DNA from: Oscillospiraceae bacterium
GTDB taxonomy: Bacteria; Bacillota; Clostridia; Oscillospirales; Oscillospiraceae
Direction of reading: 5' to 3'
NCBI GenBank assembly: GCA_017435525.1
Contig: JAFSEW010000054.1
Location: forward strand, 1 to 49,547
DNA: 49,547 nucleotides
Part shown: positions 30,998-47,322 of the stretch, one piece after another
Numbering within the stretch: the first letter of the stretch is position 1
Layout of the letters: every line of letters starts with the position of its first letter
The notes under the pieces: model-generated
The model's input: only the letters and a program-made list of their open reading frames with translations
Database searches by the model: none
Told to the model about the DNA's origin: nothing
Program-made: the position numbers and the translations under genes

Positions 30998-31026
30998 ATT
31001 TCTACCTCCAATTCTATAATAGCACA

Positions 31027-31064
31027 AAAATGATGGCAGGCACGTTTGTGTCTACCATCATTTT
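31027..31064. terminator. Hairpin at the right end of the IS element
   Basis: A perfect 10-bp stem AAAATGATGG (31027-31036) with CCATCATTTT (31055-31064). It may protect the element from outside transcription. Confidence 0.5.
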
Positions 31065-32509: not shown

Positions 32510-32537
32510 AAAAGCGGTGCTGTTAAGCACCGCTTTT
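32510..32537 (-). terminator. Terminator that contains the yesL stop codon
   Basis: A perfect 12-bp stem (32510-32521 with 32526-32537), 4-nt loop TAAC on the minus strand. The TAA stop of the yesL gene (32523-32525) is in the loop. Confidence 0.85.
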
Positions 32538-33167
32538 GGTTTCTTCGGGAATATATTTTTTGAACACCGGCCACAGTATCCACACGATGCCATAGGCAAT
32601 GGCACCGGGAGCCAGCACCGTCCACAAAAACAGCAGGCTCATAAACAGCTCATAGAAAATCTCCCGGGCAATCAGCGGCAGCATCAGCAGGGCACAGGCA
32701 GGAATGGAGCTGCGCAAATGACCCAGACCCATTGCCAGAGCATTGCGCACGGTACCGGCCACGGTATTTTCAAAGTAGGCAGTCAGCGGGAAGATGTAAA
32801 CCGCAGCAATGAAGGTCACGAAGAACATGGCGCTGAACACCAGCATCAGCACCAGCCGGATCAAATTGCTTTCCACCAGGGCGATGAGCCAGAAAAGCAC
32901 CAGCAGCGCCACTGCCACAGCCAGCAGGATCAGCCATAGCACTGTAGCCTTCTTGAAATTATCCCGGAATGCCCGGAAAAAGTCCGTTACCTTGGTGCTG
33001 CGGTCTTCTTTCATGTTGAACATCATCCGAAACAGCGCCGCGCTGGACGCGCCTGCCGTCAGAATCGGCAGACAGCATAAGATCCAAAGCACCGTAAAGA
33101 TCATCAATTCCCCCACCCGGGTCATAAACCGAACCACCGGGGAATCCAGGCCGAATATCTTACCCAT
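32523..33167 (-). CDS. YesL family (DUF624) membrane protein
   Basis: A protein of 214 residues with about five hydrophobic segments and the family opening FGLDSPVVRFMTRVGELM and LWILCCLPILTAGASSAALF. YesL-type proteins travel with carbohydrate ABC transporters and YesM/YesN regulators; function unknown, perhaps assisting a sugar permease. AGGAGGCTCAT precedes the ATG. It lies behind a terminator of the upstream operon, so it may have separate or readthrough expression. Confidence 0.88.
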   Translation of the reverse strand: MGKIFGLDSPVVRFMTRVGELMIFTVLWILCCLPILTAGASSAALFRMMFNMKEDRSTKVTDFFRAFRDNFKKATVLWLILLAVAVALLVLFWLIALVESNLIRLVLMLVFSAMFFVTFIAAVYIFPLTAYFENTVAGTVRNALAMGLGHLRSSIPACALLMLPLIAREIFYELFMSLLFLWTVLAPGAIAYGIVWILWPVFKKYIPEETKSGA

Positions 33168-33183
33168 ATGAGCCTCCTATGAA

Positions 33184-33215
33184 AACGGCAGATTGGCGAT
33201 GGCCAATCTGCCGTT
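33184..33215 (-). terminator. Terminator at the end of the carbohydrate operon
   Basis: A perfect 14-bp stem (33184-33197 with 33202-33215), 4-nt loop, T run on the minus strand. It follows yjbQ. Confidence 0.88.
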
Positions 33216-33228
33216 ACGCGCGTTCAAA

Positions 33229-33723
33229 TTATTCGCCAATGATCATAACCTGCACGGTTCTCTTGCGGCCGCGGGTCTGATCCCAGTCGATGAAGTGGAT
33301 GCGGCCGAATTCGCCCAGATCCATCTCGCCGTCCACAGCCACGATGGTCACATTGCGGCCGATAACGGAGGAGCGCAGATGGGCATCGGTGTTGTGGCAG
33401 CCGAAATTATCTTCGCCATGCTCTTCCGCGAATACCAGTGCCTTGGGGCCGGGATGCAGGTACTGGCCCTCATAACGGCAGGTGGGCATCCACGCTTCAA
33501 AAGCGTTTACCAGATCCTGCTGCAGGGTCTCCAGGCCGGTCATGGACATATCAAAGGCACACTCTTGGGTGATAACGGAGCAGGTGGTGTGGTGAGAATA
33601 TACCACCACGATGCCGTCGCGCATGCCGGAAGCGGCGAAGATCTCCTTGACCTTATCGGTAACATCGTGGAAAGAGACCGCGCGATGGCGGGATTCCAGC
33701 TTAAAAGACTCTTTATAGATCAT
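33229..33723 (-). CDS. YjbQ/UPF0047 family protein
   Basis: A protein of 164 residues, slightly longer than typical. Conserved blocks: VVVYSHHTTCSVITQE, the central HNTDAHLRSSVIG and the C-terminal GEMDLGEFGRIHFIDWDQTRGRKRTV. The family is annotated as secondary thiamine-phosphate synthase but the physiological role is unsettled. It lies 3 nt after the TIM-like gene, so it belongs to the sugar operon, which is unusual for a vitamin gene and hints at a metabolic-repair or sugar-phosphate role. Confidence 0.9.
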   Translation of the reverse strand: MIYKESFKLESRHRAVSFHDVTDKVKEIFAASGMRDGIVVVYSHHTTCSVITQECAFDMSMTGLETLQQDLVNAFEAWMPTCRYEGQYLHPGPKALVFAEEHGEDNFGCHNTDAHLRSSVIGRNVTIVAVDGEMDLGEFGRIHFIDWDQTRGRKRTVQVMIIGE

Positions 33724-33726
33724 TGA

Positions 33727-34434
33727 TTAGCCCTCCAGTTTCTTCAGGTCGTCAGCTGCCCGGCGGGTAGCAGCGATCATTTCGTCGATCATAGCAATGG
33801 GGTCTGCAGCGTTCATGATACCGGAGGCAGCGCCTGCGGCTTCAGAGCCGGCCATAATGAAATCATAGACCTGCTGGCCGTTGGTAATGCCCGCAGCCTG
33901 CTCTACCATGATATCGGGGTAGATATCCTTAATGACGCGGATGGAATCCTTCACATAAGCCATAGGGCTGACACCGTTGCCGCCGCCGATGATATCGGAG
34001 GGTTCGGGGTTAATGATATCGGGGTGCAGCTGGGCAATGGCCTTGGCCTCGGCAATGGTATCGGCACAGGCGAACACCAGGAAGTCCAGTTCCTTGGCCC
34101 GGTCGATGACAGCCTTCATCTGTGGCAGGCTCATGGGCTTCTCGCAGTGGTTGATCACCACGCCCTGGGCACCGGCAGCCTTCAGGCCTTCCGGCAGAAT
34201 GTCTGCCATGCCGCGGCCGGGACGGAGAGTATCCATGTAGGGAGCCAGAACAATCAGATTCTTGGTGTTCTCGCAGACGCGGCGAATCTCAATGGGAGAG
34301 CAGATGAACAGCACATCGATGTCATACTTCTGGGCAGCCTTGTCGGCGGCGATGGCATATTCCAGCAGCTGGTCGCCGTAGACATAGTTCTTGGTGCCCA
34401 CTTCAAAATAAGGGGCGCGGATTACAGGTTTCAT
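33727..34434 (-). CDS. Triosephosphate-isomerase-like enzyme
   Basis: A protein of 235 residues, shorter than the glycolytic enzyme. TIM-like segments: NHCEKPM, FACADTIAEA, PEPSDIIGGG, the flexible-loop area GITNGQQ and GSEAAGAASG. The first strand is VIRAPYFEVGTKNY with Lys near residue 15. Such TIM-like proteins isomerise dihydroxyacetone phosphate or tetrulose phosphates in dedicated catabolic loci. In this operon, a triose or tetrose phosphate product of the pathway is its likely substrate. The ordinary tpiA is presumably elsewhere. Confidence 0.8.
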   Translation of the reverse strand: MKPVIRAPYFEVGTKNYVYGDQLLEYAIAADKAAQKYDIDVLFICSPIEIRRVCENTKNLIVLAPYMDTLRPGRGMADILPEGLKAAGAQGVVINHCEKPMSLPQMKAVIDRAKELDFLVFACADTIAEAKAIAQLHPDIINPEPSDIIGGGNGVSPMAYVKDSIRVIKDIYPDIMVEQAAGITNGQQVYDFIMAGSEAAGAASGIMNAADPIAMIDEMIAATRRAADDLKKLEG

Positions 34435-34446
34435 GGCAATAACCTC

Positions 34447-35253
34447 TCAATCTACGATTTTCATGGTGTATGTGGCTGGCCGCACATTGGCACAGACCAC
34501 CCGGACATTGTTTTGTTTCAACTGATACAGGGTCTCATCGCTGATGCCGCTGTCAGTGATAACGGTGTGAAGCCTTTGCACCGGTGCATAGGCCACATGA
34601 GATGTGATATTAAATTTGGAAGAATCCACCAGCATAAAAGTCTTTTCCGAGTTGCGCATTGCGATTTCATTGATTCGCAGAGTCTCGTAATCCGTGGTGG
34701 TGAATTGTTTGCCCCGGGCGCAGCCGTCCGCGCCCACGAAGCTCTTGGTAAAATACAGTCCGTTCAGAGCCTGCTCGGTCATATAGCCGCAGAAATCCTT
34801 TCGGTTTACCCGGTATTCGCCGCCCACCAGCTTCACCGTCATATAAGGAGACAGCAGCTCCAGGTTTGCCAGGGAGTTGGTGTAGAGGATAATATCCAGT
34901 TTTTCGTTCTGCAGCCGCTGTACCAGCTGGGCGCAGAAGCACTGCATGGTGGTACCGGAATCGCAGAAGATCACATCGCCGTCTTCCAGGCAATCGCAGG
35001 CTGCCTTGCCGATGGCGGTTTTCTGCTCAATGTTGGTTCTGGCGCCGTGTTCAAAGGAGTAGGAGGCCATGGCGTGATTGACATTCTGGATGCCGCCGTG
35101 GGTACGGATCACTTTGCCATCCTGCTCCAACCGCGTAAACATCCGGCGGGCAGTGGATTCCGAGATATTCAGAAGCTCCATGGCTTCACTCAGAGAAATC
35201 TTCTGCACCAGAGCAAGTCTGGCCAGCAGTTCCTGTTCCCGGTTCTGTTTCAC
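34447..35253 (-). CDS. DeoR family transcriptional regulator
   Basis: A protein of 268 residues. N-terminal HTH ISLSEAMELLNISESTARRMFTRLEQDGKVIRTHGG, the DeoR signature, then the sugar-phosphate-sensing domain with IFCDSGTTM, NSLANL and VGADG. It starts at GTG 35253 with AGGAGGTGATACC upstream. As a member of the operon it most likely represses or controls it in response to a phosphorylated intermediate. Confidence 0.93.
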   Translation of the reverse strand: MKQNREQELLARLALVQKISLSEAMELLNISESTARRMFTRLEQDGKVIRTHGGIQNVNHAMASYSFEHGARTNIEQKTAIGKAACDCLEDGDVIFCDSGTTMQCFCAQLVQRLQNEKLDIILYTNSLANLELLSPYMTVKLVGGEYRVNRKDFCGYMTEQALNGLYFTKSFVGADGCARGKQFTTTDYETLRINEIAMRNSEKTFMLVDSSKFNITSHVAYAPVQRLHTVITDSGISDETLYQLKQNNVRVVCANVRPATYTMKIVD

Positions 35254-35288
35254 GGTATCACCTCCTGACCGGGGATAAGTAGACGAAT

Positions 35289-36299
35289 TTACAGATTGGC
35301 AATGAACTGACGAATCTCCGTCATGCCCTCCAGTACGCCCAGCTCCAGATGGTTTTCCACGCTGGAATAAGCGGGCAGCACGGCGATCTTACCCTGGGCA
35401 ATAGCGTCATCCCGGTTCAGGCCGCAGGTGTTGCAGGGTTCGATGGCCAGCACATAGTCGTGGGATTTCATATTCTTCCATTCCAGGCAGTTGGGCAGAT
35501 TCTTGGTATCGAAGGCCACATAGGCACCCAGTTCCAGAGCCTCATTGTAGATCACGCCGCAGGCTCGGTCACCCAGGTTGGTGCGGAAATACAGCTCCTC
35601 GCCCCGGCCGTCCACCGGATCCATCATATGCACCGGGTCTGTGGACATGGGATTCATGGGGGTAATATCCGCCTTGGACACTTCCACGCAGCTGTCTGCC
35701 TGAAGCAGAGGATATCCGAAGTTGAAGTGGTACAGGAGCATATAGGGCTCATCCGCAGCATCAAAGTTGGTCAGAACATCGTGGATCTTCACGACCTTTT
35801 CGTCCAGGCCGGTTTCAATGGTACGGCGGATGGACAGATGGCGGCTGTACATCTTGGTCTGATGCACTTCACCGGTAGCCCGGAGCACATAGCGCTCACC
35901 ATCCCAATAGGTCTCGGTGCCAAAATTCTTGGCAGGCACATGGGAGGTCCGGCCGTGGGTGGGGAAGATACCGCCCTGGCTGGCATGGCCGCCTACATTG
36001 TCCAGGCCGCAGGTGACCAGCATGCCGCCGGGCCACTGCTCTGCAAACTCGCCGTTGGCAGCGGAGAATGCCTGGGGAGAGGTAAGGCCGTTCTTGCTCT
36101 GGAAGGACAGGTTGATGCCCTTGTAGGAGAAGTCAAACAGATCCATACAGCGATCCGGCACCACGGTGAAGCGCAGGCCTGCCGCATTATAGAATTCGGC
36201 GATCTGGATCTGCTGACCACGGCCCCGGAGCAGCTGAGACTCCCGGATACCGGCGATCTGATCCATATTGCCAAGCTTTTTGAGAAGTTCAATATTCAT
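35289..36299 (-). CDS. DUF4432 family aldose-epimerase-like protein
   Basis: A protein of 336 residues in the galactose-mutarotase-like fold (DUF4432). Landmarks: FTVVPDRCMDLFDFSYKGINL, VTCGLDNVGG, PTHGRTSHVPAK, LLYHFNFGYPLL and the acidic AIEPCNTCGL. It probably converts sugar anomers or isomerises a lyxose-like or deoxy sugar. ATG 36299 with AGAGGAACC upstream is preferred over 36314. Between the isomerase and the DeoR gene. Confidence 0.88.
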   Translation of the reverse strand: MNIELLKKLGNMDQIAGIRESQLLRGRGQQIQIAEFYNAAGLRFTVVPDRCMDLFDFSYKGINLSFQSKNGLTSPQAFSAANGEFAEQWPGGMLVTCGLDNVGGHASQGGIFPTHGRTSHVPAKNFGTETYWDGERYVLRATGEVHQTKMYSRHLSIRRTIETGLDEKVVKIHDVLTNFDAADEPYMLLYHFNFGYPLLQADSCVEVSKADITPMNPMSTDPVHMMDPVDGRGEELYFRTNLGDRACGVIYNEALELGAYVAFDTKNLPNCLEWKNMKSHDYVLAIEPCNTCGLNRDDAIAQGKIAVLPAYSSVENHLELGVLEGMTEIRQFIANL

Positions 36300-36319
36300 A
36301 ATGGTTCCTCTCATCGGGG

Positions 36320-36343
36320 CAGGAAGGGCCGAAGCCCTTCCTG
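36320..36343 (-). promoter_or_regulatory. Intergenic UUCG-tetraloop hairpin
   Basis: On the minus strand a 10-bp stem (36320-36329 with 36334-36343) closes a UUCG loop between the isomerase and DUF4432 genes. No T run follows. It likely stabilises or processes the operon mRNA. Confidence 0.6.
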
Positions 36344-36355
36344 ATTATTTCGTGA

Positions 36356-37750
36356 TTACTCCACAACGATCACATTGAAGCCCATCATCTGACCGAAGGC
36401 CTTCAGCTCTTCGATGTCTACATCGTAGACCATGGCAGAGTGGTGGGTGCCGCCGGCCAGGGAGTACTCCTTCAGGAACTGAGGCAGGGGCTTGTTGGGC
36501 TTGAACCAACCCTGGGTGGCATCCTTGTAGGCGCCGCGCTCCAGGCCGATATCCAGCATCTTGCCGGGGCACAGGATCAGGTTGAAGCTGTCGTTCATGG
36601 GAGCCAGGTTCACGATGGTGGCATTGCCGGAACGGGCGCAGGTGTAAACGCCCACAGTGTTACCACAGGAGTTGTAGTTGAAGGGCTTGTCGCACAGCAC
36701 AGGCTTCCACTGGGCCAGGTTGGGGTTGCTTTCGCCCATGTGGCTCATGAGGATCACATCCTGCTCCCAGTCGGGGCAGAACATTTCGGTGAAGGTGGTT
36801 GCGGGGTAAGCGGCAAACAGAGAGCCAACCAGGCCGGCAGTGAGGACGTCACCTTCACCGGCGTAGCCCTGGCCGCGCTCCAGCACCTTGCAGCACTCGG
36901 GGAAGGGCATCTTGGGCAGGCCGCAGATATCCATGGTCAGGAAGTTGCAGGTAACGGAGCCGATACCCTTCTCCTCCATCCACTTACGGACAGCCAGACC
37001 GGACTTGGTGGCAGCGCGGTACTCTTCCTGCCAGGTGACCTGCACATTGTACTTGGCAGCGTCAGCAGCAATCTCGGCTTCCACTTCTTCATCGGTAACC
37101 TTGGCAATGTACTCGGCAACCACTTCGGGAGTCATGTACAGCACTTCGGAGCCGATATCGTTCTTGTAACGCTCGTCGGAGATCAGGAAGTCACCCATGC
37201 CGGTGAAGCTGCCGCCCACGGAACCGATCTTCATGGTCTCATAAGCCTTCTTCACAGCGGCGGCGCGGCACATACCGGCCAGCTCGGCAACTACTTCAGA
37301 GTGCAGGGCGTGGCCTGCGCAGATGTAGTAGGGCTTGCCGTTGCGCTTAAGCAGGTTGCACATATCCTGCACGCCATGGATACCGTGGTTGGGACCGATC
37401 TTGCCCTTGAAAGCGGCAGACTTGATCAGCTCATAGTCGGGCGTGGAGTCGAAGACGATGATGGGAGCCTTCAGGCTCAGCAGAGCCTCGATAGACTCCA
37501 GGGAGGGAGAGTAAGCCAGATGCATGGTGACAACGGCATCCACATCGGCTTCGTTGAACATAGCGGCAGCGGCATCAAACTCGGGCTTGATACGGCAGAC
37601 GTCGGACAGCACCACATCAATACCCTGAGCCTCCAGCATATTGATGGCCATGTGCATATACTTTTCCATGGGAGCGCGGTAGCCGACGCCGTTGGCATCG
37701 TCATACAGCTTGATATACAGGGGCAGGAAACCTACTTTGATCTTTTTCAT
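36356..37750 (-). CDS. L-fucose/L-arabinose isomerase-like protein
   Basis: A protein of 464 residues. Manganese and catalytic positions of the AraA/FucI superfamily are recognisable: E299 in GYAGEGDVLTAG, E322 in FTEMF, H337 in LMSHMGE and H436 in AGGTHHSAM. It should interconvert an aldose and a ketose. The N-terminal domain (1-160) is the substrate-recognition Rossmann-like part. The substrate is not readable; both L-arabinose-like and fucose-like sugars fit. AAGGAG precedes the ATG. Located between the amidohydrolases and the epimerase-like gene. Confidence 0.88.
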   Translation of the reverse strand: MKKIKVGFLPLYIKLYDDANGVGYRAPMEKYMHMAINMLEAQGIDVVLSDVCRIKPEFDAAAAMFNEADVDAVVTMHLAYSPSLESIEALLSLKAPIIVFDSTPDYELIKSAAFKGKIGPNHGIHGVQDMCNLLKRNGKPYYICAGHALHSEVVAELAGMCRAAAVKKAYETMKIGSVGGSFTGMGDFLISDERYKNDIGSEVLYMTPEVVAEYIAKVTDEEVEAEIAADAAKYNVQVTWQEEYRAATKSGLAVRKWMEEKGIGSVTCNFLTMDICGLPKMPFPECCKVLERGQGYAGEGDVLTAGLVGSLFAAYPATTFTEMFCPDWEQDVILMSHMGESNPNLAQWKPVLCDKPFNYNSCGNTVGVYTCARSGNATIVNLAPMNDSFNLILCPGKMLDIGLERGAYKDATQGWFKPNKPLPQFLKEYSLAGGTHHSAMVYDVDIEELKAFGQMMGFNVIVVE

Positions 37751-37763
37751 GGTAAATTACTCC

Positions 37764-38825
37764 TTATTCACCGTAGATTGATTTGCGTGCTTCCTCAATG
37801 AGGTTCACGGCGTTGTTATGCATAATGTCTTCAATGTCTTCCTTGCTCAGGTTCAGGGTCTTGGCAGCCCGCTTCAGAGCCAGCAGTTCTTCGTAGGCAA
37901 AGAAGGTAATCTTCTCGGCTTCCTCAGGGGAAACTTCCCTTAAGTGGGAGTCCTGGCTGGGGTCACCGTAAAGTCCGGGGGGAATCAGGTTGATGTAGGT
38001 GCCGTTCTCCTCGATGCGGTGGGTACGCATACGCAGGATGGGAAGATCCAGGCCGAACATCACATGCTTGACACCCACATTGCGGATCAGCTCCGTAATG
38101 GCGTACTCGCAGCAGTTGGCGCAGAAATCGTACATCAGGTCAGGTGCCTGGGTCAGATACTCGAAGGCATTGCCCACATCACCCTTGGTATAGGCTCTGC
38201 CGATATGGGCGATGATCAGCTTCACATTGGGGAATTCCCGCTTGATCTCCAGGATCTGCTGGATATTCACCTGATCCTTCAGCCGGCCATGCCGGGGAAT
38301 GTGCAGCATGCAGATAGCGCCCATTTCATCAAGCTTTGCCAGCTGGTGCTTGGGGAAGAAATCGAAGATACGGATCTCTGCTTCCGGCAGATACTTGGGG
38401 GACAGATCCAGATAGGATTTAAGGCCCAGGAAGCCGCCTTCGCGGATCTTCTGCTCGATCTCTTCCGCGGACTGATTGGGGTGGGAGTAGTACAGAGCCG
38501 GGAAGCCGCTTCTGCGGGAAGCATCGGCCACATAGTTGTTGATCTCCACGCCGTGGCCGGCATCGGAGAATACCAGAGCCTTGCACTGCTTGCCGGGGAA
38601 GAACAGCGCATAGGTCTCCTGCAGATCCTCGATGGAATTCTGCTTGGCCACCAAGCTGGGCCAGGTGACGGTACGCTTGACCTCACCGGGATTTAAAGGT
38701 GCGGGCTTTTTATGCTTCTGCAGAGCGATATGGCAGTGGACATCGAAGATCTTCTCGGGCAGGAAATCTCTCAACTCTTCCTCGTAGATCCTTCTGTCGT
38801 TGGCAGTTACTTCAAAAAGCGCCAT
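37764..38825 (-). CDS. Amidohydrolase-2 family protein (paralogue 3 of 3)
   Basis: A TIM-barrel metal hydrolase of 353 residues. Metal ligands: H30-x-H32 (DVHCH), H175 (HIPRHGR), H207 (IAHIGR) and D260 (FGLDLP). Very similar, with identical length and same ending (RKSIYGE), to the copy at 39898. Amidohydrolase-2 members include lactonases, decarboxylases and other hydrolases. In a sugar operon lactone hydrolysis or C-C bond cleavage is plausible, but not shown. AAGGAGAC precedes the ATG. Confidence 0.85.
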   Translation of the reverse strand: MALFEVTANDRRIYEEELRDFLPEKIFDVHCHIALQKHKKPAPLNPGEVKRTVTWPSLVAKQNSIEDLQETYALFFPGKQCKALVFSDAGHGVEINNYVADASRRSGFPALYYSHPNQSAEEIEQKIREGGFLGLKSYLDLSPKYLPEAEIRIFDFFPKHQLAKLDEMGAICMLHIPRHGRLKDQVNIQQILEIKREFPNVKLIIAHIGRAYTKGDVGNAFEYLTQAPDLMYDFCANCCEYAITELIRNVGVKHVMFGLDLPILRMRTHRIEENGTYINLIPPGLYGDPSQDSHLREVSPEEAEKITFFAYEELLALKRAAKTLNLSKEDIEDIMHNNAVNLIEEARKSIYGE

Positions 38826-38835
38826 AGTTGTCTCC

Positions 38836-39882
38836 TTATTTCACGCCGAAAATACGGGCGGAATTGCTGTAGAAGATTTTCTCCACATCTTCCTTACCCA
38901 GGCCCAGACGCTGGCAGGCCAGCCGGCAGGCATTCATCTCTTCGTAGATAAAGAAGGTGATCTTCTCAGCCTCGGGATAGGGGATCTCACGCATGTGGGC
39001 ATCGCCCTTAATAGATTCGTAGGGGAACTGACCCTGGGGAATCTCGTTGATGTACACGCCGTTTTCCACAGTGCGGCGGGACTTCATCCGGAAGATGGGG
39101 AAGTCGGAGCCGTAGATGAACCGGTCAGAGCCAAAGCGCTCCAGCACCTGCTCCATCACCCAGTCGTTGGTGTTGGCGGTGAAATCCCAAACGGTCTTTT
39201 CGGTATTTTTCAGATAATCCAGGGCATCGCCCACATCCTCATTGGCATAGGCTCTGCCCAGATGGGCCACGATCAGCTGCAGATTGGGATAATTCTGCTC
39301 AATCTCCAGCAGCTGGATGTAGTTGACCGGGTCAGCCAGGCGCTTGGGGCGGGCAATATGCAGCTGCACCACCCAGCCGTGCTTGTCGCAGACCGCCAGA
39401 TGCTCCTTAGTCAGGAAGTCATAGATGCGAATCTCGTCGGCAGGGATATAGCCGGGTGCGAACTGCAGATAGACCTTGATGCCCTTAAACACAGGGTTTT
39501 CCAGGATGGTACGCTCCAGCTCCTCGGGATCTGTGTCGGGATGGCACAGGTACAGCGCTGGGAAATCGTTCTCGATGGCTTTCTTGGCAACATAGGCGTT
39601 GACTGCAGGCCGATTGATGGACACGGCGCAGTCGCCGTACAGCGTCGAGATCACCGTATTATCCGGGAACAGCAGCCGGTTGGTCTCCAGAAGATCCTCG
39701 ATGGAATTCTCCTTAGCCACCAGGCCGGGCCAGTTCTGGGTGCCTGCCCGGAGGGTCTTGTTGGGGTCATGCTCCATAAGCCACACATGGGTGTGGCAGT
39801 CGATAAACTTCTGGGGCAGGAAAGGTTTCAGAATTTCTTCGTAATACTGCTTATCATAGGGTTTTACATCCAGCAGTGCCAT
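38836..39882 (-). CDS. Amidohydrolase-2 family protein (paralogue 2 of 3)
   Basis: 348 residues with the same five metal-ligand positions, H30, H32, H175, H207 and D260, as its two neighbours, but clearly more divergent in sequence: HIARPKR replaces HIPRHGR and YGSDFP replaces FGLDLP. The C-terminus also differs, ending SARIFGVK. GGAGGTAACA precedes the ATG and the gaps to both neighbours are only 10 and 15 nt. A different substrate or partner subunit from the flanking pair is likely. Confidence 0.85.
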   Translation of the reverse strand: MALLDVKPYDKQYYEEILKPFLPQKFIDCHTHVWLMEHDPNKTLRAGTQNWPGLVAKENSIEDLLETNRLLFPDNTVISTLYGDCAVSINRPAVNAYVAKKAIENDFPALYLCHPDTDPEELERTILENPVFKGIKVYLQFAPGYIPADEIRIYDFLTKEHLAVCDKHGWVVQLHIARPKRLADPVNYIQLLEIEQNYPNLQLIVAHLGRAYANEDVGDALDYLKNTEKTVWDFTANTNDWVMEQVLERFGSDRFIYGSDFPIFRMKSRRTVENGVYINEIPQGQFPYESIKGDAHMREIPYPEAEKITFFIYEEMNACRLACQRLGLGKEDVEKIFYSNSARIFGVK

Positions 39883-39897
39883 TGGTGTTACCTCCGA

Positions 39898-40959
39898 TTA
39901 TTCGCCGTAAATGGACTTACGGGCGTCCTCGATCATGTTCACGGCGTTGTTGTACATCACATCTTCCACATCCTGGCGGCTGAGGCCCAGCTTTTCTGCG
40001 GCCCGCTTGAAGGCCAGCAGTTCTTCGTAGGCAAAGAAGGTGATCTTCTCAGCTTCCTCGGCAGTGACTTCCCGCAGGTGAGGATCCTGGCTGGGGTCGC
40101 CGTACAGTCCGGGAGGCACCAGGTTGATGTAGGTGTTGTTCTCCTCGATGCGGTGGGTACGCATGCGCAGGATGGGCATATCGGTGCCGAACATCACATG
40201 CTTGGGACCTGCGTGCTTCAGCACTTCGGTAATGGCGTACTCGCAGCAGTTGGCGCAGAAATCATACATCAGATCCGGCACCTGATCCAGGGTATCAAAG
40301 GCGTTTCCCACATCGTAAGCGGTGTAAGCGCGGCCGATGTGCGCGATGACCAGCTTCACCTTGGGGAATTCCCGCTTCAGCTCCAGAATCTGGGCCAGGT
40401 TTACGGGATCCTTTAATCTGCCGTGACGGGGAATGTGCAGCATGGCGATAGCGCCCATGCGGTCCAGCACTTCCAGATGGTTCTTGGGGAAGAAGTCGAA
40501 AATGCGGATCTCTGCCTCAGGCAGATACATGGGGGTACGGTTCAGGTAGCACTTGACACCAAGGAAGCCGCCCTCGCGGATATGCTTTTCCAGATCCGCA
40601 GCGGATTCCGCGGGATCGGAATAGTACAGGGCCGGCCAGCCGGTCTTCCGGGAGCATTCGGAAACATAGGCGTTGTTTTTCTCCCAGGCGCCGCGGCTGG
40701 TAAACATCAGAGCCTTCACATCCTTACCGGGGAACATGAGCCGATAGGTCTCCTGGAGGTCTTCGATAGAATTGTCCAGCGCCACCAGAGAAGGCCAGGT
40801 AACGGTGCGCTTGACGAAACCGGGCTGCGGGGGCTTCTTCTCCAGGAACTTATCCAGCCACACATGGGTATGGACGTCCAGAATCTTGTCGGGCAGAAAA
40901 TCCTTCAGCTCTTCTTCGTAAATTTTCTTGTCATAGGCAGTAACTTCAAAAAGTGCCAT
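39898..40959 (-). CDS. Amidohydrolase-2 family protein (paralogue 1 of 3)
   Basis: A 353-residue metal-dependent hydrolase with H30-x-H32 (DVHTH), H175 (HIPRHGR), H207 (IAHIGR) and D260 (FGTDMP). It closely matches the gene at 37764 along its length, so these two arose by duplication, with the more divergent copy lying between them. The C-terminal CANCCEYAITE stretch and IPPGLYGD-like VPPGLYGDPSQD are shared only by this pair. First amidohydrolase after the permeases. AAAGGAAAG precedes the ATG. Confidence 0.85.
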   Translation of the reverse strand: MALFEVTAYDKKIYEEELKDFLPDKILDVHTHVWLDKFLEKKPPQPGFVKRTVTWPSLVALDNSIEDLQETYRLMFPGKDVKALMFTSRGAWEKNNAYVSECSRKTGWPALYYSDPAESAADLEKHIREGGFLGVKCYLNRTPMYLPEAEIRIFDFFPKNHLEVLDRMGAIAMLHIPRHGRLKDPVNLAQILELKREFPKVKLVIAHIGRAYTAYDVGNAFDTLDQVPDLMYDFCANCCEYAITEVLKHAGPKHVMFGTDMPILRMRTHRIEENNTYINLVPPGLYGDPSQDPHLREVTAEEAEKITFFAYEELLAFKRAAEKLGLSRQDVEDVMYNNAVNMIEDARKSIYGE

Positions 40960-40977
40960 AATTCTTTCCTTTCTGAA

Positions 40978-41811
40978 TTAACCCTTCACTGCACCGGCAG
41001 CGATACCCTTGATAAAGTACTTCTGCAGGAACAGGAACAGAATGACCATGGGAATGGAAACCAGCAGCACACCGGTCATGGCGTAGGCCAGCTCGGAGCC
41101 GCGGGAGCCGAAGAAGCCGGTGATACCAACCATCAAGGTGGGATTCTTGTTTTCATTCAGCAGGGTGCGGGAAACCAGATAGTCGTTCCACATGCCGACG
41201 CCCTGGCGAATGGCGCAGGTGGCGGTGACAGGGGCCAGCAGGGGCAGGAAGATCCGGGCAAAGACACCCACCGGCTTACAGCCATCCAGATAGGCGGCTT
41301 CTTCCAGTTCCACCGGGATGCCCTGCATAAATCCGGTGTAGAGGAACACCGAGAATGGCATATTCCAGGCCGCCTGGATCAGAATGCAGCCCCAAATGGA
41401 GTTGTACAGGCCCAGCTTCACGGAGATGGTGGTCAGAGGCAGCAGGCAGCCGATGAAGGGAATGACCATCAGGGTAACGATGATCTTATAGTAGCCGGAG
41501 AAGATCTTGTGGCGGCATCTGGCGATGGCGAAGCCTGCCAGAGATGCCAGAATAATGACGATGATCAGCGCCATTGCAGTAATAAACGCGGTATTTGCCA
41601 TGGCCTGCCAATACTTCATCTTGCCGATGACGTAAGGGAAGTTGTCCAGGGTAAAGGTTTCCGCAGTGATTGTCAAAGGAAATTTAATAACGTCTTTACG
41701 GTTTTTAAAAGAACTGATCACGAAGTAGTAGACCGGGATCATCATAACCAGAGTGGCGATGGCCAGGCCGATTTCGGAGAGGAATTTATTGAGCTTATCT
41801 TTCTTAGTCAT
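40978..41811 (-). CDS. Carbohydrate ABC permease, MalG-like
   Basis: A protein of 277 residues with about six helices and the sugar-permease EAA motif (EEAAYLDGCKPVGVFARIFLPLL). It belongs to the CUT1 type. The ATG overlaps the stop of the preceding permease by one base (TAATG), with GGAGGATA upstream, so the pair is coupled. No ATPase gene is in the operon; CUT1 importers often share MsmK-type ATPases encoded elsewhere. Confidence 0.93.
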   Translation of the reverse strand: MTKKDKLNKFLSEIGLAIATLVMMIPVYYFVISSFKNRKDVIKFPLTITAETFTLDNFPYVIGKMKYWQAMANTAFITAMALIIVIILASLAGFAIARCRHKIFSGYYKIIVTLMVIPFIGCLLPLTTISVKLGLYNSIWGCILIQAAWNMPFSVFLYTGFMQGIPVELEEAAYLDGCKPVGVFARIFLPLLAPVTATCAIRQGVGMWNDYLVSRTLLNENKNPTLMVGITGFFGSRGSELAYAMTGVLLVSIPMVILFLFLQKYFIKGIAAGAVKG

Positions 41812-42737
41812 TAGTAGATATCCTCCCTCTTCTTAAGATAGATCAGCTGGATCAGGGAAATGGCTGCTATGATCAGCAGCAGGAATACCGATAGCGCCGA
41901 TCCAAGTCCGTAGTCAAAGTCCTGGAAGCCAAAGAAGAAGATTCTCTGGGTCATCAGCAGGGTGGACTTGCCGGGCATGCCCTTGGAAATGTTGTAGGGC
42001 AGTTCGTAGGCCTTGAAGCCTGCGATGGTGGTGGTGATCACATTGATGGTGATGGAGGAAGCCATCATGGGCAAGGTAATATGCCACAGCTGCTGGCGGG
42101 GCACAGCACCGTCGATGGCAGCAGCTTCGTAAAGTTCCTGGGGAATGCTCTGCAGGCCGGCCATGAACACGATGACGCACATGCCGATCTGCACCCAGGT
42201 AGAGCCGACGATAACGGCGATATTGGTCAGGCCGCGGGTTTCCAGCCAGTTGATCTTTTCCAGGCCCATGGAAACCAGAACCTTGTTGATCATGCCGTTA
42301 TTGAAGTTGTACATAATTCGCCACAGCATACCGACAACGGTGCCGGAAAGCAGGGCGGGCAGGAACCACAGAGAGCGCATCAGACCGCGGTTGATGCGGC
42401 CTTTGCCCTTCTTATCCAGTGCCAGGGCGGTAATGAAGGAGATCACGACAGTGAGGATTGTGGTGCCGATGGCGAAGGTGATGGTGGCGATCATCATTTC
42501 ATTGAAGCCATCGATCTTGGATATCTCCATGTAGTTCTTTAATGCCACATAGTTATATTCTGCATTTACGCCGTTCCAGTCGGTGAAGCTGTAGCGGACG
42601 ACCTCAGTCAGGGGCCACAGCATAAACATGGCGCACAGAATCACAGAAGGCAGAATAAACAGCATGCCAGCCCGATTTTTTCCGCGCTCCAGGGCATTGC
42701 CTCTGCGCTTGGGCAGTGTGAGCGTAGCGTTTTTCAT
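41811..42737 (-). CDS. Carbohydrate ABC permease, MalF-like
   Basis: A protein of 308 residues with an N-terminal helix, GVNAEYNYVALKNYMEI loop and the EAA motif YEAAAIDGAVPRQQLWHITLPMM. It pairs with the MalG-like protein downstream. ATG 42737 is chosen with GAGGG upstream; the frame is open to 42911, but that includes the hairpin region. Spacer to the binding-protein gene is 252 nt. Confidence 0.92.
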   Translation of the reverse strand: MKNATLTLPKRRGNALERGKNRAGMLFILPSVILCAMFMLWPLTEVVRYSFTDWNGVNAEYNYVALKNYMEISKIDGFNEMMIATITFAIGTTILTVVISFITALALDKKGKGRINRGLMRSLWFLPALLSGTVVGMLWRIMYNFNNGMINKVLVSMGLEKINWLETRGLTNIAVIVGSTWVQIGMCVIVFMAGLQSIPQELYEAAAIDGAVPRQQLWHITLPMMASSITINVITTTIAGFKAYELPYNISKGMPGKSTLLMTQRIFFFGFQDFDYGLGSALSVFLLLIIAAISLIQLIYLKKREDIY

Positions 42738-42903
42738 AGGATCCCTCATTTCATATGGTGTGTATCTCTCAGGCACTGATAAAGCGCATAGCGCAGCACA
42801 GCAATCAGTATCCTTTTTCTTATCTCTCTTCAGCGGTTTTGCGTCAGCAGGAAAGCAGTTGGTCGGAGAATTTCCAAAAACTGGTCGCGTGCTGTTTGAA
42901 TTT

Positions 42904-42938
42904 TGCCCCACTGGAGGGCAGGAACCTCCAGTGGGGCA
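42904..42938 (-). promoter_or_regulatory. Strong hairpin between binding-protein and permease genes
   Basis: A perfect 14-bp stem (42904-42917 with 42925-42938), 7-nt loop, no T run on the minus strand. Such structures often stabilise the upstream binding-protein mRNA. The remaining 42738-42989 spacer has no gene. Confidence 0.7.
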
Positions 42939-42989
42939 GTGTTTCCCTCAATTAGTCAGGTATTGCTTTGATCAGAATCCAAATGATGC

Positions 42990-44318
42990 TTACTGGTTCT
43001 TGTAGGACTTGGGCATCATTTCGACCATCTTGTCGACCATAGCCTGAGCGTCGTTGTCGCCGGACAGCAGGCCCTTGATCATGCCGTTGGCAGCATCGGA
43101 GAACTCAGCAGCCCACAGGTTGAAGCCCATCAGAGTTGCAGGAGCAGCACCCATCTGAGCAGCCACAGGGATCATGCACTCGGGCAGCTTGATCTGGTCT
43201 TCGGTCATGCTGGTGACAACGGGAACGGTGCCACGGGCATTCTGGATGTAAGCGAAGTTCTCGCCGACGAACAGCCAGTTGAAGAAGGTCTCAACAGCGG
43301 CCTGCTCAGCAGCGGTACGGTTGGGGTTCTCGGTGACGCAGAATGCGTCCTCGGGGGAGTTGGAGATCCAGTTCACGCTGTCGCCGAAGGGAGGCAGGGA
43401 AGCGGAGATGTTCTCAACAACATTGGAGATCATGCCGGCGTTCCAGTTACCAGCCAGGCACATTGCGGCCAGGCCGTCGCCCATAGCGGTAGCAGCATCT
43501 TCTTCCAGCATGGAAGCGGAGCCTTCCAGGAAGTAAGGAGCGATCTGGTCCATTCTCTCAACCAGACCGGGGACGCCAGCCCAATCAAAGGTGCCGTTCT
43601 TGAAGTCTTCCTGATATGCCTTAACGGCATCAGCGTCGTTGAGCAGGTTGGCCAGAACCAGCTCCAGGATCATCCAGGAGGTAGTGGTCTTGCCGGCAGC
43701 GGTAACCAGAGGAGCAGCGTCGGTCTTGGCTTCGATGTCAGCGCAGCACTGCATCAGCTCAGTCCAGTTCTTGGGAGCCTCAGTCCAGCCTGCTGCGTTC
43801 AGGATGTCCATGTTGTAGAACATGCAGGAGAAAGCAGCGCCCTGGCACATACCCACGAACTTGCCGCCATGGGTGAAAGCATTCTTATAGGTGTCGGGCA
43901 TCAGAGCAGCCACATCCCAGCTGGACAGATCGGTCAGCATGTTGCCGGCGATCATGGTGTCCATGTTCTGGTTGTTGTTGCACTGAATGACATCGGGCAG
44001 GTCATTGGCAGCGATACGGGTGGTCAGGAAGGTTGCGTCTTCACCCAGGCCAACGTGCTCGACCTTGATGTTGGGGTACTCTTCTTCGAACTTAGCTTCC
44101 ATGGCATCCCATGCGTCTGCCCAGTCAACCTGAGCGATCCACACTTCGATGGTCACTTCTTCCTGCGCATCATTGCCAGCAGGAGCTTCGGGAGCCTTGG
44201 TCTGCTCGGGAGTCTTGTCATTCTCGGGAGCCTTAGTCTGCTCGGGAGCCTTCTGGCCACAAGCGACCAGACTGAAGACCATTACCAGAGCCAGCAGCAG
44301 AGCGATCAACTTTTTCAT
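42990..44318 (-). CDS. Carbohydrate-binding lipoprotein of an ABC importer (family 1)
   Basis: A protein of 442 residues. Signal peptide MKKLIALLLALVMVFSLVAC with lipobox LVAC. A low-complexity linker of APEQTK/TKAPE-like repeats (about 25-50) follows, then the sugar-binding fold with IEVWIAQVDWADAWDAMEAKFEEEYP, FVGMCQGAAFSCMFYN and MCLAGNWNAGMIS. It hands the substrate to the MalFG-like permeases. Trp and aromatic residues suggest a sugar ligand. GGAGGAAATGACAA precedes the ATG. Confidence 0.93.
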   Translation of the reverse strand: MKKLIALLLALVMVFSLVACGQKAPEQTKAPENDKTPEQTKAPEAPAGNDAQEEVTIEVWIAQVDWADAWDAMEAKFEEEYPNIKVEHVGLGEDATFLTTRIAANDLPDVIQCNNNQNMDTMIAGNMLTDLSSWDVAALMPDTYKNAFTHGGKFVGMCQGAAFSCMFYNMDILNAAGWTEAPKNWTELMQCCADIEAKTDAAPLVTAAGKTTTSWMILELVLANLLNDADAVKAYQEDFKNGTFDWAGVPGLVERMDQIAPYFLEGSASMLEEDAATAMGDGLAAMCLAGNWNAGMISNVVENISASLPPFGDSVNWISNSPEDAFCVTENPNRTAAEQAAVETFFNWLFVGENFAYIQNARGTVPVVTSMTEDQIKLPECMIPVAAQMGAAPATLMGFNLWAAEFSDAANGMIKGLLSGDNDAQAMVDKMVEMMPKSYKNQ

Positions 44319-44357
44319 TTGTCATTTCCTCCTTGATTTAGCTTTTTTACTGCGGTT

Positions 44358-45842
44358 TTACAGGCCGTAAACTGTGCCCAGCAGGTTCGCTTTCTGCTTA
44401 TACTCCGCATAAAGCGGGGCATACTTTGCAGCATTCGCGGGGTCAGGATAAATCACCCGCTCGCGAACAGCCAGACGTTTATATCCTTCTTCGACATTGG
44501 GATAGATCCCACAGCCCGTTCCCGCCATAATGGCAGCGCCCACGCACGCAAGGTCGGCGACCTCTGGAATTCGGACAGGCAGATTTGCTATGTCCGCCAC
44601 CATCTGACACCAAAGTGCACTCTTGGAGGCGCCTCCTGCGAGTTTCAGACCCTCTTTGGACGGCTTCGTCTTGAAAGACTCCATCATCCACAGTGCCTGG
44701 AACGCAACACCTTCCATAATGGCGCGGGCAATATCAAAACGGTCATGGGAAAGATCCAAGCCGATGAAAGACGCTTTGGAGAATTTGCGGCCGGGCGCCG
44801 CATTGCCGGAGAAGGGGTAGAAGAACAGACCGTCTTCCGCCGCTTTCCGCTTTGCCACCTCTTCGTTGATCACATCGAAGGGAAGCAGGCTGCCGTCGGG
44901 GGCAACCGTCAGGTTCCTGCGCCACCACTCCAGGCAGACACCGCCGGAGGACAGACTCAGCAGGCTGCCCCATTTTCCGGGAACTGCCGAAATGGACTGG
45001 GCAAGACCGGTCTCAAAGGCAGGCTCGTCGCCGATGGCGGTAACCACCCAGCAGGTACCGGAGCCGATGAGGATGTCGCCGTCCTTCAGCGCACCCGCGC
45101 CCAGAGCCACAGCGTACTGATCGTGGGCACCGGCCACCAGAACCGTGTCGGTGCTCAGGCCCAGGGCCTGAGCTGCTTCCTCGGTAAGGTTGCCGATGAC
45201 ATCGCCGGAGCGGACGATCTTGGGCAGCCGGTCTTCAGTGACACCGGCAAATTCCAGAATCTCAGGATCGTACTGACCGGTGCGGATATTGATCAGCTGG
45301 TTGTTGCCTCCGTCAGACAGGTCCACAGCGGGAATACCGGTCATTTTCATGGATATGTAGTCCGGCACGGAGAGGAACTTGGCCGTTTTCTCATAGAGCT
45401 CCGGCTCATTTTCCCGCATCCAGCGGATCTCAATGGCAAGCATTGCCTTGCCCAACCGCCAGCCGGTTTTCTGATACATGGTATCGGCTTCGCCGACCTC
45501 GCGAATATAGGCTTCTTTCTGCGCTTCTCCACGGCCGTCATTCCATACCATTGCAGGCCGGACAGGATTTCCATCCTTGTCAACCGCCACCATGGTGCCG
45601 CCCTGCAGCGACAGGGAGATGGCTGCTACCGCCTTGCCGATCTCAGGGTCTGCACAGACCTCCCGAACGGTTTCGCAGACGGCGTTCCACCAGTCCTCGG
45701 CGTTCTGCTCGCTGTAGCCCACCTGAGGGGTATGCAGCGCATAAGGCCGGTATGCATGGCCCAACAGTTCTCCGTCGGCGGAGAACAGCAGCGTCTTAGT
45801 GCCGGTGGTACCCACATCGATACCCAGCAAATATTGCTTCAT
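44358..45842 (-). CDS. FGGY family carbohydrate kinase (xylulokinase-like)
   Basis: A protein of 494 residues. Phosphate-1 DVGTTGTKTLLFS, substrate-binding LQGGTMVAVD, WNDGRG and VAGAHDQYAVALGAG, adenosine GGASKSALWCQMVADI and C-terminal VGAAIMAGTGCG. It phosphorylates a ketose or related substrate with ATP. First gene of the operon, 39 nt before the binding-protein gene; TTGGAGGTACAAGC precedes ATG. Substrate not identifiable: the operon's isomerase product is likely. Confidence 0.93.
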   Translation of the reverse strand: MKQYLLGIDVGTTGTKTLLFSADGELLGHAYRPYALHTPQVGYSEQNAEDWWNAVCETVREVCADPEIGKAVAAISLSLQGGTMVAVDKDGNPVRPAMVWNDGRGEAQKEAYIREVGEADTMYQKTGWRLGKAMLAIEIRWMRENEPELYEKTAKFLSVPDYISMKMTGIPAVDLSDGGNNQLINIRTGQYDPEILEFAGVTEDRLPKIVRSGDVIGNLTEEAAQALGLSTDTVLVAGAHDQYAVALGAGALKDGDILIGSGTCWVVTAIGDEPAFETGLAQSISAVPGKWGSLLSLSSGGVCLEWWRRNLTVAPDGSLLPFDVINEEVAKRKAAEDGLFFYPFSGNAAPGRKFSKASFIGLDLSHDRFDIARAIMEGVAFQALWMMESFKTKPSKEGLKLAGGASKSALWCQMVADIANLPVRIPEVADLACVGAAIMAGTGCGIYPNVEEGYKRLAVRERVIYPDPANAAKYAPLYAEYKQKANLLGTVYGL

Positions 45843-45903: not shown

Positions 45904-45932
45904 AGATTAGCGCGATTTTTCTATTTTGTCAA
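45904..45932 (-). promoter_or_regulatory. Promoter of the carbohydrate operon
   Basis: On the minus strand: TTGACA (45927-45932), 17-nt spacer, TAATCT (45904-45909). Leader of about 55 nt before the kinase start. It is likely the main promoter for the 12 genes down to yjbQ. Confidence 0.8.
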
Positions 45933-45939
45933 TTTATAT

Positions 45940-46025
45940 TGACCGATTCATTCAATTATCAGCTACTTGCACAAATGAATCTTAGGAAAATTGTAGTAAT
46001 CGTCAAGGGGAAACTGACCGATTCA
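45940..46025. repeat. Two direct repeats, TGACCGATTCA, in the divergent spacer
   Basis: TGACCGATTCA at 45940-45950 and 46015-46025, 75 nt apart and in the same orientation, flanking the region upstream of the operon promoter. A shared regulator, perhaps the DeoR protein, could bind them. Confidence 0.55.
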
Positions 46026-46169: not shown

Positions 46170-46198
46170 TTGACAAGAAAAGTGAAAACTTTTATAGT
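46170..46198 (+). promoter_or_regulatory. Promoter of the nag-type operon
   Basis: TTGACA (46170-46175), 17-nt spacer, TATAGT (46193-46198), about 90 nt before the nagB-like start. Confidence 0.8.
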
Positions 46199-46294: not shown

Positions 46295-47263
46295 ATGGGA
46301 CTTTACGATGAATTCCGCTTCCATCCCGCCCCCTGGCTGCCCCACAGCGATCTGCCGCTGGAAGAGCTGGAGCGCATCCGCAATATCAAGCGCGAGGACA
46401 TGGAATACACCAATGAAAACGGCTACAGCGTCAAGGTGGTCATTGACCCCACGCTGCACATGGTGCAGGATATGTTCTACCGGATTCTGATGTCCGATCT
46501 CAACGACACCCCCTTCTCCATGATCTGCCCTAACCAGTGGCCCGGCGCTTACAGCTCTGTTGCCAACATGCTCAACAAATTCAATGTTTCCGCCCGGAAT
46601 GTCCATGCCTTTGCCATGGATGAGTGGGCAGACGAAGATGGCAATGTGGCTCCCCTGACCTACGGCGCAGGTCTGGGCTACTCCTTTATCAACCATTTCT
46701 ATGGCCGCATCCGGGAGGATCTCCGCCCTTCCATAGAGAACTGGCATGTCCATACCAACGAGAACAAGGGTACCAATGTCTATTCCGACATGATCGACGA
46801 GATTACCGGCGGCGGCGTGGATGTGGTTTATACGGCCACCGGCTGGCCCGGCCATACTGCCTTTATCGATCCCAGAACCGAAGAATTCAAAGCTGACACG
46901 CTGGAAGAATTCTGCCGGCTTGGCTCCCGAATCGTCACCACCACGCCCCTGACCGTTTGTGAGAACTCCCTGTTCAGCCCCATGGGTGCCTCCGGCGATG
47001 TCTGGGCAGTGCCCTACAAGGCCGCCACCATCGGCCCCAGAGACATCATGCACGCCAAAGAGCGTGTGGAGCTGCACAACTTTGTCAATGCAGACGGCAG
47101 TTCCTGGCAGCGGATGGTCTCCCGGCTGGAGCTGTACGGCCCCATCACCAAGGACTTCCCCGCCTCCATTCTTCGTCTGGGCAAGGGCACCTGCTATGTG
47201 TCCGAAGCCATTGCAAAGCCCTTTGCCAGCTGGCACTGCGGTATTGAAGATAAGGATATCTGA
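46295..47263 (+). CDS. NagB-like glucosamine-6-phosphate deaminase family protein
   Basis: A protein of 322 residues, longer and more divergent than E. coli NagB (~266). The fold's landmarks: FAMDEWAD with D109/E110 in the position of the catalytic Asp region, and ATGWPGHTAFIDP where NagB has a GIGxDGHIAFNEP-type loop. It should convert glucosamine-6-phosphate to fructose-6-phosphate and ammonia, or a related amino-sugar phosphate. First gene of an operon with a GNAT protein and nagA. AAGGAGAA lies ahead of ATG 46295. A substrate variation is possible because of the divergence. Confidence 0.85.
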   Translation: MGLYDEFRFHPAPWLPHSDLPLEELERIRNIKREDMEYTNENGYSVKVVIDPTLHMVQDMFYRILMSDLNDTPFSMICPNQWPGAYSSVANMLNKFNVSARNVHAFAMDEWADEDGNVAPLTYGAGLGYSFINHFYGRIREDLRPSIENWHVHTNENKGTNVYSDMIDEITGGGVDVVYTATGWPGHTAFIDPRTEEFKADTLEEFCRLGSRIVTTTPLTVCENSLFSPMGASGDVWAVPYKAATIGPRDIMHAKERVELHNFVNADGSSWQRMVSRLELYGPITKDFPASILRLGKGTCYVSEAIAKPFASWHCGIEDKDI

Positions 47264-47270
47264 TTGCGCG

Positions 47271-47303
47271 CCGCCCTGTAAGGCATTCTTACAGGGCGGT
47301 TTT
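47271..47303 (+). terminator. Terminator-like hairpin after the nagB-like gene
   Basis: A perfect 12-bp stem (47271-47282 with 47288-47299), 5-nt loop and TTTT tail. The GNAT and nagA genes follow without another clear promoter, so partial readthrough is likely. Confidence 0.8.
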
Positions 47304-47322
47304 CCAAAAAGGAGTAACAGCA

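Follow-up and report, generated by a model that had tools for sequence, protein, structure and literature searches.

A conserved TIM-like/YjbQ gene pair in a sugar operon of an Oscillospiraceae bacterium and its possible role in ketose phosphate isomerization

Described pathways and the Oscillospiraceae operon

The operons for L-arabinose, L-fucose and L-rhamnose encode an isomerase, a kinase of the FGGY type and an aldolase or epimerase of family PF00596, while the D-apiose/apionate pathways are marked by an apiose dehydrogenase or an apulose-phosphate transketolase. In the catabolism of tetritols (erythritol and L-threitol), a ketose 1-phosphate made by a kinase is handled by two isomerases, LerI, which is presumably akin to triosephosphate isomerase (TIM), and DerI. 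LerI and then DerI convert L-erythrulose 1-phosphate into erythrose 4-phosphate (PMC10733421), and in Brucella the genes deoR, tpiA2 and rpiB are located just downstream of eryABCD (PMC3522698). Here we describe an operon of an Oscillospiraceae bacterium, contained in a window of 49,547 nt (contig JAFSEW010000054.1 of assembly GCA_017435525.1; C47 among the contigs of this genome), in which genes for a TIM-like protein and for a protein of the YjbQ/UPF0047 family accompany a sugar isomerase and a kinase. LerI and DerI, acting in sequence, move the carbonyl by one carbon per step, and the present gene set suggests the same for longer chains.

The operon consists of 13 open reading frames (ORFs) that follow one another in the same orientation on the minus strand (45842 down to 32523), whose families were assigned with Pfam (all 13 proteins) and NCBIfam (10 of them; Table 1). 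An earlier, sequence-only reading had proposed a dedicated sugar operon, which agrees with the presence of an isomerase, a kinase, a DUF4432 protein, an ATP-binding cassette (ABC) importer and a DeoR regulator; it named twelve families correctly but left out the DUF624 membrane protein, the count being 13. Its claim that an aldolase is missing was borne out, as no aldolase family was found by Pfam among the 13 proteins. The same Pfam analysis of the operon proteins detected no PF00596 aldolase/epimerase, neither a tetritol dehydrogenase nor an RpiB/DerI family and, as regards the D-apiose/apionate markers, no dehydrogenase or transketolase family. The rest of the host genome (2.06 Mb, rated 77% complete) carries one PF00596 gene (C28:24491-25015) and a single gene for class II fructose-bisphosphate aldolase (C54), and an ordinary tpiA (C46, 307 bits) is present besides two TIM-like genes; a transaldolase/FSA was not found in it, absences being weak at this completeness.

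The locus shares isomerase, kinase and regulator with the L-arabinose, L-fucose and L-rhamnose operons but differs from them in having no PF00596 gene and in its TIM-like and YjbQ genes. Its likeness to tetritol catabolism would lie in a kinase-made ketose 1-phosphate, two isomerases, the first of the TIM type, and an end product within the pentose phosphate pathway. The differences are an archaeal-type TIM, YjbQ rather than RpiB, a SIS isomerase, amidohydrolases and, in the window, an aldose isomerase in place of the polyol dehydrogenase. The earlier remark that the combination matched no recognized pathway agrees with the literature searched, whose coverage left subscription journals mostly outside and in which no sugar pathway with TIM-like and YjbQ proteins was found; within that literature, the operon is of an undescribed type.

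The TIM-like/YjbQ pair and its partners

The conserved core of the operon is the TIM-like/YjbQ pair, not the amidohydrolases, and we regard this pair as the more important finding. Its distribution was followed in (i) the relatives, i.e. the best 80 of 183 confirmed TIM-like stretches from GTDB species genomes, a set that leans to close relatives and comprises, judging by titles, metagenome assemblies, many of them from ruminant guts; (ii) a phylum-wide sample, in which 14 of 398 genomes have the TIM-like protein; (iii) a class-wide sample queried with TIM-B, the second copy of the host, with matches in 45 of 392 genomes, from which 30 places in 29 loci, a lower number than the sample lists, were analyzed (L150 coincides with L125 of the phylum set); and (iv) plasmids, where six of the 14 records with a match were read and five had the pair. 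A YjbQ gene was located within 1.5 kb of the TIM-like gene in 80/80 relatives, 24/30 class-wide, 14/15 phylum-wide and 5/5 plasmid places, the two wider Bacillota sets together giving 38 of 45 places. The plasmid carriers were Shinella (two), Enterococcus raffinosus, E. faecium and Lacticaseibacillus paracasei. By the ORF calls of the relatives, 77 of 80 have yjbQ on the strand of the TIM-like gene, starting -30 to 200 nt downstream of it; of the other three, L051 is a contig end, and the ORF starts of L021 and L075 were read as drawn too early. At the genome level, YjbQ (E <= 1e-20) was detected in 43 of 45 TIM-like-positive and in none of 34 negative genomes (Fisher p ~2e-20), and SIS (E <= 1e-35) in 37 of 45 and none of 34 (Fisher p ~5e-15); these genomes are related and not independent, and the 34 negatives are those individually listed, no random draw, with YjbQ and SIS members below the cut-offs uncounted. 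No YjbQ was annotated near a haloarchaeal TIM record (L173), and no phage copies were found. The sequence-only reading had called for a search of conserved neighborhoods, and its gene set does recur: the order from the two permeases through three amidohydrolases, isomerase, DUF4432, DeoR, TIM-like and YjbQ to DUF624 is also found in 2 other genomes (L008, L038), with 1-2 extra ORFs among the amidohydrolase genes. Across the loci, though, what is retained is the pair, and the amidohydrolases vary.

The TIM-like protein scored above the cut-off of subfamily PRK04302 (146.4 versus 132 bits) and below that of the TIM equivalog TIGR00419 (61.8 versus 130.6 bits). With archaeal triosephosphate isomerase (PDB 1hg3, 2h6r; PRK04302) it shares ~30% identity and all three catalytic residues, but its gene is linked to YjbQ and sugar genes in a host that has a separate tpiA. 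The catalytic motifs K, NHxE and E are present in all 80 TIM-like proteins of the relatives and in 15/15 rows of a diverse alignment, two archaeal TIMs among them. That the protein could be a dead enzyme was ruled out, since the catalytic lysine is kept in the alignments. The best lead of the earlier reading is its remark that TIM-like enzymes can take tetrose phosphates.

YjbQ/UPF0047 proteins are widespread (10 of 14 control genomes), and solved structures exist. The protein of the window belongs to them by fold and family score (TIGR00149); however, the proteins found here are mostly longer (164-206 aa versus 129-151 aa for the PDB chains) and stand beside sugar genes in the loci read. Invariant residues of the clade (37 rows) include H45, E54, D70, N111, D113, H115, D146 and R155. 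The structural model (mean predicted local distance difference test, pLDDT, 93.9) gave 17 PDB matches at E <= 0.001 in Foldseek, all 17 of the YjbQ family, and this comparison with PDB folds offered no hint of YjbQ chemistry. A 2021 review gives the function of YjbQ as unknown, and the titles and abstract openings of the literature surveyed mention no sugar role.

As to the partners of the pair, 54 of the 80 loci have an FGGY kinase, 51 an amidohydrolase, 50 an isomerase and 30 a second, longer YjbQ; SIS is present in 20 by ORF clustering and in 28 when sought by tblastn within 5 kb, and 3 loci carry an FSA-type transaldolase. For the 35 loci flanked by 6 kb or more on either side, the respective numbers (SIS by clustering) were 29, 27, 26, 14, 8 and 2. 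The fullest small set (L072) comprises DeoR, FSA-type transaldolase, SIS, long YjbQ, TIM-like, short YjbQ, isomerase, amidohydrolase and kinase, and the host itself has a second set at C28 (L122) with long YjbQ, TIM-B, SIS, DeoR, an SftI/FucI-like isomerase and an FGGY kinase. The ketose-making gene beside the pair varies, being AraA-type or an SftI/FucI-like isomerase (L006, L122); at L132 the pair is accompanied by a zinc alcohol dehydrogenase and an FGGY kinase, and in Shinella with a short-chain dehydrogenase/reductase (SDR), an IolO/psicose-epimerase-like protein and an FGGY kinase. Such swapping of upstream enzymes while the pair stays is what would be expected if varied sugars enter a common isomerizing arm as ketose phosphates. 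The pair also occurs with class II ketose-phosphate aldolases, several of them with a phosphotransferase system (L127, L169, L170 and others) whose IIC component looks GatC-like by eye. The SIS isomerases near the pair are of the KdsD/GutQ type, and L183 has Rpe with SIS near it. An HxlB (205 bits, cut-off 160) stands with Rpe at L130, and by eye also at L128, which recalls the ribulose monophosphate pathway (HxlA, HxlB); unlike that pathway, no HxlA was seen among the few neighbors scanned at L130 and L128, no further search having been made.

A search for the substrate among the neighbors covered 81 of the 145 operonic ORFs that carried no label in the 80 relatives; the commonest families, among 25 of 82 listed, are GFO/IDH/MocA oxidoreductases (7/81), M20 peptidases (5) and AP_endonuc_2 (5). 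Single matches to GH43 (L017), GH28-like (L175) and heparinase II-like (L058) proteins point in different ways, so that a substrate could not be read from them. Two further neighbors deserve mention. A protein of ~1000 aa is encoded directly downstream of YjbQ at L048:3914-6889, L052:11220-14195 and L057:11217-14216, the L052 copy having no Pfam or NCBIfam match; and a gene for a GmhA-like (phosphoheptose isomerase-like, by eye) protein adjoins a class II aldolase gene near the pair at L133:12239-12793.

A possible carbonyl walk and the alternatives

We propose, tentatively and at somewhat less than an even chance, that the operon replaces the cleavage step by a stepwise movement of the carbonyl, extending the L-erythrulose 1-phosphate route. 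The ABC importer would bring the sugar in, the AraA-type isomerase would yield the ketose and the FGGY kinase the ketose 1-phosphate. In the manner of L-erythrulose-1-phosphate isomerase, the TIM-like enzyme would then take the carbonyl from C2 to C3 next to the carbon that carries the phosphate, and YjbQ would move it one carbon on. If the chain length requires it, a KdsD/HxlB-like SIS isomerase, which in this host is encoded at C28 with its own TIM-like/YjbQ pair, might move it again, and Rpe or FSA would finish. Read from the other end, the product would be an ordinary 2-ketose 5- or 6-phosphate that could enter the pentose phosphate pathway. The amidohydrolases are given no reaction in this scheme; they might conceivably act before the kinase or as side activities. 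We infer C1 phosphorylation, every one of these reactions, the action of YjbQ as an isomerase, chain length, substrate and induction. KdsD-like SIS and Rpe favor five carbons, HxlB and FSA six. The partners of the pair, which are sugar-phosphate isomerases and epimerases, count for the proposal, as do the retained catalytic motifs of the TIM-like protein, the linkage and co-occurrence of TIM-like, YjbQ and SIS, the swapping of upstream enzymes and the separate tpiA of the host; and L174, where a class II aldolase accompanies the amidohydrolase, isomerase and kinase genes, fits a ketose 1-phosphate intermediate. It is possible, albeit more doubtful, that the route is general, so that TIM-like, YjbQ and SIS proteins walk the carbonyl of almost any ketose 1-phosphate, resetting each carbon passed, with YjbQ as a new class of sugar-phosphate isomerase; L-sugars and rare sugars would then all end as ordinary D-ketose phosphates.

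The sequence-only reading had instead sought the missing step in the amidohydrolases, as lactone hydrolysis or as the C-C-cleaving reaction. The metal-ligand positions are indeed kept (51 of 55 proteins passed a strict motif test), and the best PDB folds for the AH1 model (pLDDT 94) are dihydroxybenzoate-type decarboxylases, with a putative 2-pyrone-4,6-dicarboxylate hydrolase, LigY and LigJ also appearing among the 50 matches listed; all these matches are weak (query template modeling score 0.47-0.55) and leave the reaction unfixed. NCBIfam has no family for the amidohydrolases. Amidohydrolase, isomerase and kinase also occur at L175, with neither aldolase nor TIM/YjbQ in 19.9 kb, as the amidohydrolase solution would allow. 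However, 8 of the 35 well-covered loci have no amidohydrolase in the locus (the rest of those genomes being unscanned), whereas all 35 have YjbQ; the operon has no dehydrogenase to make a lactone; and at L174, in a genome of the same taxonomic order, the three genes have a class II aldolase gene and one of aminotransferase type beside them, with no TIM/YjbQ within the 19.9 kb read. Moreover, among eight amidohydrolase regions (L174-L181) the TIM-like/YjbQ pair is in view only at L178, so that this family has no fixed link with the pair. Taken together, these data make the amidohydrolase solution quite unlikely. As a separate observation, relatives of the amidohydrolases have GFO/IDH/MocA-type oxidoreductases and a class III aminotransferase-like protein as neighbors at L176:8065-15339 (copies recognized by eye) and L174:8611-13886 (by family scan), a different and uncharacterized context for this family.

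An aldolase could also be hidden, in that YjbQ or an amidohydrolase would cleave the ketose 1-phosphate into dihydroxyacetone phosphate and an aldehyde, the TIM-like protein being a dedicated triosephosphate isomerase. The catalytic residues kept in the latter, its occurrence with class II aldolases at 8 of 15 phylum-wide places, the invariant His, Asp, Glu and Asn of YjbQ, which could bind a metal, and an isomerase-kinase pair that recalls the fucose and rhamnose operons all speak for it. Nevertheless, we consider it rather unlikely: the TIM-like protein scores below the TIM equivalog cut-off in a genome that has an ordinary tpiA, YjbQ is also present at the aldolase places (8 phylum-wide and 3 plasmid) and hence is no stand-in for an aldolase, and it would not explain why SIS, Rpe and HxlB recur as partners. 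The SIS, Rpe and FSA partners suggest five or six carbons and argue against a pathway for a four-carbon sugar, in which the TIM-like protein would carry out the LerI reaction and YjbQ the DerI reaction to give erythrose 4-phosphate. Many of the 183 TIM-like stretches come, by their titles, from ruminant-gut metagenomes, and tetroses are not known to be common gut sugars. Two isomerases would nonetheless be enough for a tetrulose 1-phosphate, the LerI/DerI conversion provides a precedent (PMC10733421), and the Shinella cluster (SDR, ketose-epimerase-like, TIM-like, YjbQ, FGGY) resembles tetritol catabolism with YjbQ in the place of RpiB. On balance, a tetrose pathway appears unlikely.

Several points weigh against the stepwise carbonyl movement that we favor. 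The proposed route rests on gene content and sequence, with its reactions deduced, and gives no role to the amidohydrolases, which are present in 51 of the 80 loci and in three copies here. The operon of the window has no SIS gene; the best score of the SIS proteins is to arabinose-5-phosphate isomerase, and HxlB was scored at one locus only (L130) and seen by eye at L128. A class II aldolase is encoded within 5 kb of the TIM-like gene at 8/15 phylum-wide and 3/5 plasmid places, where a plain triose isomerase role would also make sense. As to YjbQ, the only published activities found are a low thiamin phosphate synthase activity, described as secondary, and the rescue of a pdxB mutant by overexpression, and no report of YjbQ isomerizing a sugar phosphate was found in the literature searched. 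Besides, the pair is not without exceptions: YjbQ is missing within 1.5 kb at 6 of the 30 class-wide places, of which L142 and L151 are near contig ends, L150 has it at a distance of 1.7 kb, L149 at ~11 kb on its contig, and L141 and L146 have none in 20 kb (L185, L186) but copies elsewhere in the genome; 2 of 45 TIM-like-positive genomes gave no YjbQ. A replacement of YjbQ by RpiB at L185 was rejected, the small neighbor being a low-molecular-weight phosphatase.

Operon features and biological meaning

Table 1. Operon genes and candidate regulatory elements in the window.
Feature	Position	Strand	Remarks
FGGY carbohydrate kinase, 494 aa	44358..45842	-	above FGGY_N and FGGY_C cut-offs
ABC sugar-binding protein	42990..44318	-	SBP_bac_1/SBP_bac_8
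MalF-like permease (BPD_transp_1)	41811..42911	-	ORF drawn from GTG
MalG-like permease (BPD_transp_1)	40978..41811	-	
AH1, amidohydrolase-2 family	39898..40959	-	HxH, K, H, H, D invariant, 45 aligned rows
AH2, amidohydrolase-2 paralogue, other subgroup	38836..39882	-	44% identical to AH1
AH3, amidohydrolase-2 paralogue	37764..38825	-	73% identical to AH1
AraA-type sugar isomerase, 464 aa	36356..37750	-	Pfam, NCBIfam
DUF4432 protein	35289..36314	-	Pfam
DeoR-family regulator	34447..35253	-	GTG start; Pfam, NCBIfam
TIM-like isomerase, archaeal TIM subfamily	33727..34434	-	catalytic Lys, NHxE, Glu kept
YjbQ/UPF0047 protein, 164 aa	33229..33723	-	TIGR00149 75.9 bits, cut-off 67.75
DUF624 membrane protein	32523..33167	-	Pfam; lies past stable hairpin
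Candidate promoter	45904..45932	-	perfect TTGACA, 17 nt spacer, TAATCT as weak second hexamer; absent from promoter scan list
Candidate operators	45940-45950 and 46015-46025	-	TGAATCGGTCA in two exact copies at a distance of 75 bp, upstream of kinase gene
Terminator-like hairpin, then TTTT	33168..33228	-	yjbQ-DUF624 gap; -27.8 kcal/mol over 73 nt; absent from scan list

The 12 gaps between the operon genes range from -1 to 78 bp, 7 of them being below 20 bp. The best NCBIfam match of the kinase is xylulokinase (XylB, 324 bits), under the equivalog cut-off of 380.25, and the isomerase likewise stays below the equivalog cut-offs of AraA (106.6 versus 622 bits) and of the sulfoquinovose isomerase SftI (31.3 versus 700 bits). 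The DUF4432 protein we take to be possibly a mutarotase, and the true start of the MalF-like permease, judging from the sequence, is probably an ATG near 42737.

The single strong promoter of the earlier reading did not stand out, the candidate sites being unremarkable in a promoter scan: 11 promoter-like sites were found in the region versus 8.4 +/- 3.3 in shuffles, the best-scoring one (11 of 12, 46170-46198) points in the opposite direction, and only one site on the right strand, a 9-of-12 match at 46006-45979, is upstream of the kinase gene. The exact copies of TGAATCGGTCA are possible DeoR operators; two more copies with one mismatch occur elsewhere, and four or more matches were obtained in 5 of 100 shuffles. 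Given the stable hairpin between yjbQ and the DUF624 gene, the main transcript may stop at yjbQ; further hairpins are found in the binding-protein/permease and isomerase/DUF4432 gaps.

Divergently from the operon, a trio on the plus strand (46295-48971) encodes a protein remotely similar to NagB (37.5 bits versus the nagB cut-off of 236.9, and nothing matched in Pfam), a GNAT acetyltransferase and a protein resembling NagA (154.9 versus 225.65 bits). Relatives of the latter with at least 50% identity share the TIM-like locus in 8 of the 80 loci (L009-L013, L016, L027, L029), and the trio may accordingly be part of the same sugar system. Downstream of the operon, IS3-type transposase genes (29877-31027, minus strand; by eye from translations) adjoin a collagen-like ORF (31532-31849).

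YjbQ is an orphan family of bacteria and archaea without an agreed main function, and the presence of the pair in sugar clusters of Clostridia, lactobacilli, enterococci and Shinella gives it a testable role; we see a fair chance that a function can be assigned to it in this way. If the carbonyl walk were true, it would mean an aldolase-free use of rare sugars in gut and rumen bacteria, and its enzymes would be useful for rare-sugar synthesis.

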